A DNA stretch of 64,000 nucleotides, from the NCBI RefSeq assembly GCF_013386115.1, contig NZ_JACAOR010000005.1:124001-188000 (forward strand), in the 5' to 3' direction. Made by a program: the position numbers and the translations under genes. Every line of letters begins with the position of its first letter. Positions within the stretch are counted from its first letter, which is position 1. The stretch comes from Pseudomonas gingeri (GTDB lineage: Bacteria; Pseudomonadota; Gammaproteobacteria; Pseudomonadales; Pseudomonadaceae). Under the pieces are notes generated by a model. The model worked only from the letters and a program-made list of their open reading frames with translations. It did not search any database and had not been told where the DNA came from. Of this stretch, positions 44,271-55,833 are shown one piece after another.

Positions 44271-44399
44271 TCAGGCCTTTCTCATAACTATTGCGCTGAA
44301 TTATCTATCTGAAGCGAATTATTGCGCAAGTCATGTTTATCTAAGCAATGTTCGCAATCCTCTGTCGTCGCGTCAGGCCTATTCTTATCACCAGAATCA

Positions 44400-44597
44400 C
44401 TGCAACAGAATCACTGCCCGGACATAGAGTCCACAGCGGCCCGCCGAATCAGGCGCGCCGCGGCCGACAATCCTACAGGGTTGCCCCGGCCCCCGGGCTG
44501 CACACGGTCCAGAAGACGGTGTGAGGTGAGCCGGCGTCAAAAGCGCCGAGCACGGACGAAATTCTCCAAAGGGAGGCCGACGGGCCTCCCTTTTTTA
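44400..44597 (+). ncRNA. Candidate small RNA ending at a strong intrinsic terminator
   Basis: The 424-base gap between the Lrp gene and the DUF6515 gene has no protein-coding signal. It ends with an excellent plus-strand terminator (44568-44597) that no upstream plus-strand gene needs. The preceding sequence is GC-rich with several local inverted repeats (for example GCCCCGG / CCCGGGC around 44481-44500, and CCGGCG / CGCCG near 44531-44548). The 5' end and promoter could not be fixed. I cannot match it to a named pseudomonad sRNA. Confidence 0.45.
44568..44597 (+). terminator. Strong intrinsic terminator
   Basis: AAAGGGAGGCC (44568-44578) pairs with GGCCTCCCTTT (44583-44593) around a four-base loop; the run of six T starts at 44591. 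Confidence 0.92.
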
Positions 44598-54144: not shown

Positions 54145-54549
54145 GGCAAGCCCGCCCGCCACAAGACTGTGCTCTGCTTCAGGCTCCCTGGCTGGCCGGA
54201 GCTACCTCTCAAGTAGCGCTTTTGTCCCGCATTTTTTAGGAAATGTCGTACTTCCTGTGGCGATCCGTGCTGTCTTTCCGGGATGAGCTGGCAACGCTAG
54301 CCTTTTCCGGTCATCGCCAAATCGGTGACAGGGCGTAGGAACCCTTGCAATTGACTCTTTCGATACTGAGCATCCACCATACTCGCTGGTTTTTTAGCCA
54401 GCGTGCCCCTTATGGTGGCCGTGCGCGGGCACGTTGATTCGTGGCCGAGTGTCCGAGAGAGCTCGGTTCCTACCCCGCGTACGGCTGCCACCCAAGTCCG
54501 TAGGAAGGCTTTATATGGCAGCTCCTTGAATCTCTCGGAGTATTCCAAA
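54145..54549 (+). promoter_or_regulatory. 405-base leader region with ordered stem-loops and a potential pseudoknot
   Basis: No gene. From 54374 the sequence is dense in complementary segments: CCACCATA / TATGGTGG (54374-54381, 54411-54418) enclosing CGCTGG / CCAGCG (54384-54389, 54398-54403); CGTGC / GCACG (54420-54424, 54429-54433); then TTCCTAC (54467-54473), GCTGCCA (54484-54490), GTAGGAA (54500-54506), TGGCAGC (54516-54522) in A-B-A'-B' order. A' covers a strong AGGAAGG ribosome-binding site and B' abuts ATG 54515, which opens a four-codon frame (MAAP, stop 54527-54529). It lies directly before the BRO-N gene. Confidence 0.55.
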
Positions 54550-55116
54550 ATGGGAAAAGTCATTCTCGAAAGTCTCGCTGAAACCATACAAAACCTTCTT
54601 GATAACGGTAGTGCTTATGACGTGTCAGAGCAGCTTGGTCTTGCCGTTAACGTTGCTTTCGAACCGCAAATATTTACTCGTCACCACCGCAAACTCCGCG
54701 CCTTGCTCCTGCATGACGAAGCCTGGTTCTGCGCCCGTGATATCGGGCACCTGATGGGCATCGAGTGGCATGAGCGCAAAGCGATCAAGCTTGATTCGGA
54801 TCAGCGTCGACTGCTGAGCTTGCAGGGGAATGGCGGAGCAGAAGAACACCTGATGCTCAGCGAGTCGGGTGTCTACGCCATGCTGGTCTATCACTACCTG
54901 CCGGAGAACCGGCATCTGCGCCAGTGGCTGACGCACCAGGTATTACCCATGCTGCGCGACCAGCCACAACTGGCCCTGACCCAGGCCCCGAGCCTGGGCT
55001 TGCTGGAATGGAACGGTGGTGCGCTGAGCCTGCTGCATTGGCGCAAGGAGCCCTGGATCCGCCTGCGTGATATGCCGCAGGTGGTGCCCGTCAGCGGTTG
55101 TGGCAGTGTCTGGTAA
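54550..55116 (+). CDS. BRO-N domain protein (phage antirepressor-like)
   Basis: 188 residues from ATG 54550 with CGGAG nine bases upstream. The BRO-N domain spans about residues 38-135: LLLHDEAWFCARDIGHLMGI, KLDSDQRRLL, LMLSESGVYAMLVYHYLPEN and LRQWLTHQVLPMLRD. This domain is common in phage antirepressors and binds DNA. The C-terminal part is short and Leu/Trp-rich with no KilA-C or ANT domain. No other phage gene is nearby. The frame is open to 54403, but that runs through the structured leader. Confidence 0.85.
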   Translation: MGKVILESLAETIQNLLDNGSAYDVSEQLGLAVNVAFEPQIFTRHHRKLRALLLHDEAWFCARDIGHLMGIEWHERKAIKLDSDQRRLLSLQGNGGAEEHLMLSESGVYAMLVYHYLPENRHLRQWLTHQVLPMLRDQPQLALTQAPSLGLLEWNGGALSLLHWRKEPWIRLRDMPQVVPVSGCGSVW

Positions 55117-55265: not shown

Positions 55266-55553
55266 ATGCAAAGTGTTTTGAGCAACAGGGTCGTGAGCGT
55301 CTCCGAGCTCAAGAAAAACCCCTCTGCCGTATTGAGTGAAGCAGGAGGCGAACCCGTGGCGGTACTGAACCATAATCGCGTAATGGGCTATATGGTGCCT
55401 GCTGACGTATTCGAGATGATGATGGAGCGTCTGGACGATCTGGAACTCGCGCAGTTGGCCAGAGAACGCATCGAAGCCAATGAACCCCCTGTACGTGTTT
55501 CTCTGGACGACTTGATTGCCGAAGCCCAGGCCGATATCGAACATGGGCGCTGA
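55266..55553 (+). CDS. Type II antitoxin, Phd/YefM-like
   Basis: 95 residues from ATG 55266. Opens MQSVLSNRVVSVSELKKNPS followed by LSEAGGEPVAVLNHNRVMGYMVP, the Phd/YefM DNA-binding fold pattern. The C-terminal, acidic, probably flexible part (ERIEANEPPVRVSLDDLIAE) would neutralise the toxin. It overlaps the toxin gene by 11 bases, and such pairs normally autorepress through a site at their promoter. Confidence 0.92.
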   Translation: MQSVLSNRVVSVSELKKNPSAVLSEAGGEPVAVLNHNRVMGYMVPADVFEMMMERLDDLELAQLARERIEANEPPVRVSLDDLIAEAQADIEHGR

Positions 55554-55833
55554 ATACAGTATTGAATGGGACCCAAAGGCCCTGAAGGAACTGCGCAATC
55601 TCGATGCGGTTCTTCGAGTGCAATTGCTACGCAAGCTTGAAGAGCGTCGACATGCGCCGCGTGTTTCAGGTGATGCGCTTCACGGTCTCAAGGATTGCTA
55701 CAAGATCAAGCTGCGCGGGTCAGGATATCGACTCGTCTATCGTGTCGAGGACGAGCGAATTGTTGTTGTCGTGCTGGCGATAGGCAAGCGAGAGCGTAGC
55801 GCCGTGTATGAACAGGCCAGGAAGCGTACCTGA
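55543..55833 (+). CDS. RelE/ParE-family toxin
   Basis: 96 residues from ATG 55543, inside the end of the antitoxin gene. Family pattern: YSIEWDPKALKELRNLD, LLRKLEERRHAPR, DCYKIKLRGSGYRLVYRVED and VVVLAIGKRERSAVYEQA. RelE relatives cut mRNA on the ribosome; basic and aromatic residues near the C-terminus (KRER, Y) are consistent with an active toxin. Confidence 0.92.
   Translation: MGAEYSIEWDPKALKELRNLDAVLRVQLLRKLEERRHAPRVSGDALHGLKDCYKIKLRGSGYRLVYRVEDERIVVVVLAIGKRERSAVYEQARKRT

Follow-up and report, generated by a model that had tools for sequence, protein, structure and literature searches.

The window, by which we mean the whole stretch of 64,000 nucleotides of Pseudomonas gingeri DNA analysed here, contains at positions 54408-54495 of its forward strand a C4 antisense RNA (RF01695; 53.7 bits, with the Rfam 15 cut-off at 45), which lies upstream of a gene for a BRO-N protein. 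We consider it highly likely that this is a C4 module which has become fixed in the chromosome, is excised from its transcript and blocks translation of the BRO-N gene in trans, as in phage P1. The computed basis for this reading comprises the family match, a covarying structure, antisense and target segments (a'/a2 and b'/b2) that change together, a conserved chromosomal site and coding constraint on BRO-N; we infer transcription, processing and repression in trans, a decoy role for the upstream element and the object on which BRO-N would act. The first-pass annotation had recognized a structured leader here, which it could not assign to a named RNA family; the match to RF01695 contradicts this, and a likely function can now be offered for a leader that sequence reading alone had left unnamed. 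The features of the locus, with the pairing segments named after the phage P1 record (a', b', a1, b1, a2, b2), are as follows:

54297-54349, + strand: c4-a1b1 element, upstream and target-like (RF03163, below cut-off)
54335-54343, + strand: a1, GTAGGAACC, complementary to GGTTCCTAC at 54465-54473
54355-54362, + strand: b1, CTCTTTCG, complementary to CGAGAGAG in the b' loop, with one G-U
54374-54407, + strand: upstream stem-loop plus CCACCATA, which can pair with the C4 stem foot TATGGTGG
54408-54495, + strand: C4 antisense RNA (RF01695, above cut-off)
54452-54460, + strand: b', loop of hairpin P3, TCCGAGAGA, exact complement of b2
54467-54473, + strand: a', linker from P3 to the 3' strand of P1, TTCCTAC, exact complement of a2
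54484-54490, + strand: c', foot of stem P1, 3' strand, GCTGCCA
54500-54506, + strand: a2, target of a', GTAGGAA, 7 nt exact
54515-54529, + strand: MAAP-stop frame, probably incidental, seen in 9/93 loci
54516-54522, + strand: c2, TGGCAGC, complementary to c', a copy of the C4 stem 5' strand
54531-54539, + strand: b2, target of b', TCTCTCGGA, overlapping the Shine-Dalgarno GGAG at 54537-54540
54550-55116, + strand: BRO-N gene, 188 aa, antirepressor-like (Pfam Bro-N, PHROG)

The upstream c4-a1b1 match scored 44.1 bits, just under its cut-off of 46.7, with e-values of 4.6e-10 (401 bases searched) and 1.9e-9 (own genome); it stands in the right place for c4-a1b1, and we describe it as target-like with no claim to formal membership of RF03163. 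The isrK model (RF01394) reached 29.7 bits at the locus, below its gathering score of 50. Run on phage P1 for a positive control, this library recovered the annotated C4 with 68.8 bits and the P1 a1b1 with 51 bits. The C4 score in the window is the lowest among the 21 copies of its own genome. The C4 part folds at -47.7 kcal/mol (z -4.92), with 0/200 shuffles as good, and this z-score together with the covariation reported below indicates that helices P1, P2 and P3 are present; the upstream stem-loops also fold as the first-pass annotation had claimed. As in P1, GGTGG stands at the predicted 5' end, and by analogy with the ends in the P1 record the mature RNA would be expected near 54414-54492. 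A search of the locus for a sigma-70 consensus promoter found none. Elsewhere in the window, at 44322-44591 (+), we noted a Pseudomonas sRNA P24 (RF00629, 237.8 bits).

The C4 RNA of phage P1 is described as pairing around the ribosome-binding site and so blocking translation (PMC12197685) and as being excised by RNase P (PMC5320573). The c4-icd-ant region (immI) of P1 shares with the locus in the window the order a1, b1, C4, a2, b2 and gene, the C4 fold, the identical placement of a' and b' and a downstream antirepressor. It differs in that in the window the antirepressor-like gene itself carries b2 and an intervening icd cistron is missing, no phage genes stand among the neighbours scanned with Pfam, and about twenty copies occur per genome. 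By analogy, a single transcript would span a1b1, C4, the a2-c2-b2 segment and the BRO-N gene; C4 would adopt its three-helix fold and be released by RNase P cleavage at the P1 stem foot, and the a' and b' segments of the freed RNA would pair in trans with a2 and b2 on further transcripts. Since b2 contains the BRO-N Shine-Dalgarno sequence, this pairing would block translation, and the antirepressor-like BRO-N would stay off. With their similar target sequences, a1 and b1 could act as a decoy or feedback site; we draw this idea from IsrK, which resembles a1b1 (the isrK model scores 35.1 bits on P1) and is reported to activate its own operon in trans (PMC4825925). The isrK-orf45-anrP system of Salmonella Gifsy-1 resembles the present one in having an alternatively folding leader ahead of an antirepressor-like gene (PMC4825925), and is distinguished from it by the isrK model falling short of its cut-off here; C4 goes unmentioned in the accessible text of PMC4825925.

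The complementarity between b' and b2 extends over 9 nt without a mismatch and covers the GGAG in front of the BRO-N start codon (ATG 54550). The a' segment pairs with both a2 and a1, the GTAGGAA string being present a second time, upstream, at 54335, and a stretch neighbouring b' pairs with b1 through one G-U. The exact site pair a2...b2 of the window occurs a single time in its own genome. Between a2 and b2 sits c2, which shares one base with CTCC 54522-54525, the predicted pairing partner of the GGAG (predicted unpaired probability of GGAG, 0.01-0.12). The first-pass annotation had noted that a'/a2 interleaves with c'/c2, as is indeed the case, and had read this as the hallmark of an H-type pseudoknot. 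While the A-B-A'-B' order is real, an antisense RNA followed by its target fits it equally well: the first of the two pairs is the C4 a' segment with its target a2, and the stronger b'/b2 pair had been overlooked. Likewise, ATG 54515 does start a MAAP-stop frame, but this frame shows no conservation as a part of the element, and we rejected it as a conserved regulatory peptide, given that it is restricted to the window and close relatives. The proposal of a translational switch appears likely to be right, with antisense pairing in trans as the action that has the best support; an alternative fold in cis may add a second layer.

For the analysis of covariation we used 93 C4 loci from the own genome, other Pseudomonas and the BRO-N loci, a set in which some places are repeated (duplicates such as L053 and L083 were kept) and from which L001 and L052, being the window again, were excluded. 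Across 43 copies, 97.0% of the cells in the C4 stems are paired, a value reached in 0/500 shuffles, and 16 of the 27 stem pairs are altered on both sides. The a'/a2 match is exact over at least 7 nt in 90 of the 93 loci and over 6 nt in the other 3; when a' was set against the a2 of loci with different cores, 401/7548 comparisons reached 7 nt. The b'/b2 pair is the more variable, covarying one, with an exact length of at least 7 in 67/93 loci, 6 in 16, 5 in 8 and none in 2, and among the 86 of 93 loci with an identified ATG, 82 have the end of the b2 helix 3-12 nt upstream of an ATG. In target-swap permutations, which take no account of relatedness, the observed mean was reached in 0/10000 for either a (20 distinct) or b (21 distinct) in the own genome, in 0/10000 for either a (39 distinct) or b (56 distinct) over all loci, and within the BRO-N loci alone in 0/10000 for b and 1/10000 for a. 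By this permutation measure, relatedness being ignored, antisense and target change together. Among the own C4s, the own b2 is strictly the best partner in 14/21 and the own a2 in 6/20; with a2 and b2 combined, 16 of the 21 pair best with their own targets, and the other five (L041, L042, L044, L045 and L049) pair equally well or better elsewhere. The check proposed in the first-pass annotation, a homologue search followed by a covariation test, has in this way returned copies in many Pseudomonas genomes whose paired segments change with compensation.

The c'/c2 pair raises an alternative in which the leader works in cis: an alternative or pseudoknotted fold, with c'/c2 and a'/a2 together, would set access to the ribosome-binding site with no need for a trans RNA or, in a variant of this idea, would decide whether C4 can be excised. 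When C4 was folded with its 3' flank the C4 fold won, at -59.0 against -51.8 with c'/c2 forced, a cost of 7.2 kcal/mol. With the upstream flank added (45 bases on the 5' side, 48 on the 3' side), the window's fold of lowest energy instead combines c'/c2 with a second, upstream helix, CCACCATA/TATGGTGG, which opens the foot of the C4 stem in the predicted fold. With the foot opened in this manner, C4 processing would be hindered, and the expected RNase P site may be opened by a switch acting in cis. Among 77 distinct loci folded with flanks, this combination was the lowest-energy fold in 27, the C4 foot was kept in 49 and neither was seen in 1. The c'/c2 complementarity is above shuffles in 50 of 74 distinct loci and is reached in 0/10000 permutations over all loci; P1 too shows part of a c2-like stretch in the corresponding position, with five exact pairs, which is absent from the features of its record, the c'/c2 match being better here. 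However, the permutation support for c'/c2 is weak in the own genome (291/10000) and in the BRO-N loci (134/10000), those 49 loci retain the C4 foot, and the covariation of b'/b2 is left unexplained by a cis fold. We rejected general conservation of an upstream strand that pairs with the C4 foot, as just 11/77 distinct loci exceed shuffles. Overall, a'/a2 covaries strongly and c'/c2 moderately, and the preferred fold varies with the flank supplied. A leader acting in cis without a trans RNA is in our estimate rather unlikely, and pairing of the excised C4 in trans remains the preferred reading.

The product of the gene that C4 would control matches Pfam Bro-N (4.7e-11) and the PHROG anti-repressor Ant (2.1e-14), suggesting that it is a relative of phage antirepressors, and it matches 307 phage records, every one at less than 60% identity; NCBIfam gave no family for 9 proteins, BRO-N among them. 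With a dN/dS of 0.12-0.14 against three orthologues, its coding sequence is, by this measure, under purifying selection. Its neighbours in the window include, according to Pfam, an exonuclease, a NYN protein, a DUF2076 protein, an AsnC-type regulator and an EamA transporter. Directly downstream of BRO-N, at 55266-55830 (+), we also noted a pair formed by a Phd/YefM-type antitoxin and a ParE/RelE-type toxin.

Both flanks of the window locus are common to 33 of 63 BRO-N loci, one flank to 13 and neither to 17, the locus occupying a single conserved chromosomal site in different species. A decaying prophage remnant of no present function would account for the phage-related nature of both the RNA family and the protein, and for the own-genome copies L045 and L049, which have no good b2 target. 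It is a very improbable account in view of the shared flanks, the low dN/dS of BRO-N and the compensated stems and targets. A C4 at or above the cut-off precedes BRO-N in 43 of 60 scanned BRO-N loci (L079-L081 lie outside the C4 scan and L097 offers only about 100 bases upstream). C4 is present in 28 of the 33 same-site loci, and the other 5 have none at all. The same-site C4 loci, together with the window, carry 16 distinct pairing strings, among which that of L089 at least includes an unconvincing b pair and that of L114 is nearly the same as the window's.

The P. gingeri strain D8001 (L086) offers a case in point: its flanks are 95-96% identical to those of the window, and its leader (1655-2001, against 54230-54571 in the window) is 78% identical, being nearer to that of another P. 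gingeri, L087 (83%). Relative to the window, a' and a2 are the same and b' and b2 have both changed, giving a new match of 5-6 pairs; in L087 b'/b2 comprises 7 exact pairs, or 13 counting G-U. From these comparisons the leader of L086 looks as if the switch had been exchanged through recombination. At seven BRO-N loci a weak c4-a1b1 match sits directly 5' of the gene and C4 was not found (L057 1404-1456, L066 1407-1459, L088, L095 and L100 each 1916-1968, L096 1898-1950 and L098 1829-1881); their C4 may have been lost or may be supplied from elsewhere.

The own genome contains 21 C4 and 18 a1b1 matches, two of the C4 copies (L044 and L045 on contig C2) lying about 1.1 kb apart. The genes behind these copies include those for DUF6124 and DUF3077 proteins; Pfam returned nothing at E 0.01 for 4 of 8 such proteins, and PHROG gave no match for four target proteins (three of the own genome, one of another). 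Pfam matched 10 of 20 ORFs neighbouring C4 copies and gave none for the other 10, with no phage structural or integrase families among the matches. No following gene was found for L045, and L049 looks like a decayed copy too. The first-pass suggestion of a widespread pseudomonad leader agrees well with the recovery of C4 in 184/199 Pseudomonas genomes, at least 118 of which have 10 or more copies and 69 reach 20, the ceiling of the count, these per-genome numbers being lower bounds. Outside Pseudomonas, 5 of 142 genomes of the same class had C4, in no more than 3 copies each.

C4 was earlier reported from Proteobacteria and phages, and c4-a1b1 from gamma-Proteobacteria and phages (Weinberg 2010, PMC2864571), and a large C4-like group in a single Acinetobacter baumannii genome has also been described (PMC5320573). 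These Group 1 sRNAs resemble the Pseudomonas set in their many copies per genome and variable pairing segments; their targets are given as unassigned there (PMC5320573), whereas here the adjoining gene mostly carries a matching target. No description of a Pseudomonas C4 set with linked targets was found among open-access titles and abstract openings. Chromosomal C4s might chiefly defend against incoming phages with matching C4-controlled antirepressors, the linked gene being secondary, given that C4 is reported to determine P1/P7 heteroimmunity (PMC12197685) and that the same idea was put forward for the A. baumannii RNAs (PMC5320573). We regard this as improbable, because the C4s are mostly matched to their adjoining gene, and blastn of the leader against 50,697 phage and 72,556 plasmid records gave no match, although short targets would escape such a search. 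A near phage or plasmid source of the leader was rejected on the same absence of blastn matches.

On balance we lean towards the view that in Pseudomonas an immunity RNA of phages has become a genus-wide set of insulated one-gene switches, with sRNA-Xcc1 (RF02221) as a second lineage of such devices. If this is so, many genomes would hold about twenty C4 cassettes, each with an antisense code fitting its own gene start, the switched gene would often encode a small protein lacking known relatives in phages, and the antisense codes would drift together even at one chromosomal site. C4 itself emerges from the survey as a common chromosomal element of Pseudomonas, often ahead of small uncharacterised genes, and its many natural code/target pairs allow the divergence and insulation of such pairs to be studied directly.

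At three BRO-N loci sRNA-Xcc1 stands in the place of C4 (L074 2062-2145 on the - strand, L076 1304-1387 and L077 1304-1386). It was found in 26/99 Pseudomonas genomes and not in the own genome, and a loose pattern detected a BRO-N-like motif downstream in 26 of 30 sRNA-Xcc1 loci (L117-L146). Like C4, it lies ahead of BRO-N/ant genes and shows complementarity between its loop and the Shine-Dalgarno region; unlike C4, it is described by a different covariance model, and the Rfam output gives no clan. In a set of 24 distinct copies, the match of the loop to the downstream and upstream sites of its own locus averages 7.0 nt, against 4.8 for those of others (0/10000 permutations), loop and sites changing together by this measure, and the a'/a2 of this RNA is nearly invariant and so uninformative (2314/10000). 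These comparisons suggest that sRNA-Xcc1 works like C4. It has been reported before symE in integron cassettes, with a divergent mechanism inferred in 2025 (PMC12444791), and PMC12189769 lists both RNAs, unlinked in its accessible text; reading sRNA-Xcc1 as a C4-like RNA would provide a testable role for an integron-borne RNA. sRNA-Xcc1 also stands ahead of ant in phages Aaphi23 and Rac-SA53 and ahead of a KilA-N gene in Acinetobacter phage 4316 (L147-L149), with loop-to-Shine-Dalgarno matches of 7, 6 and 6 nt and model scores of 78-86 bits.
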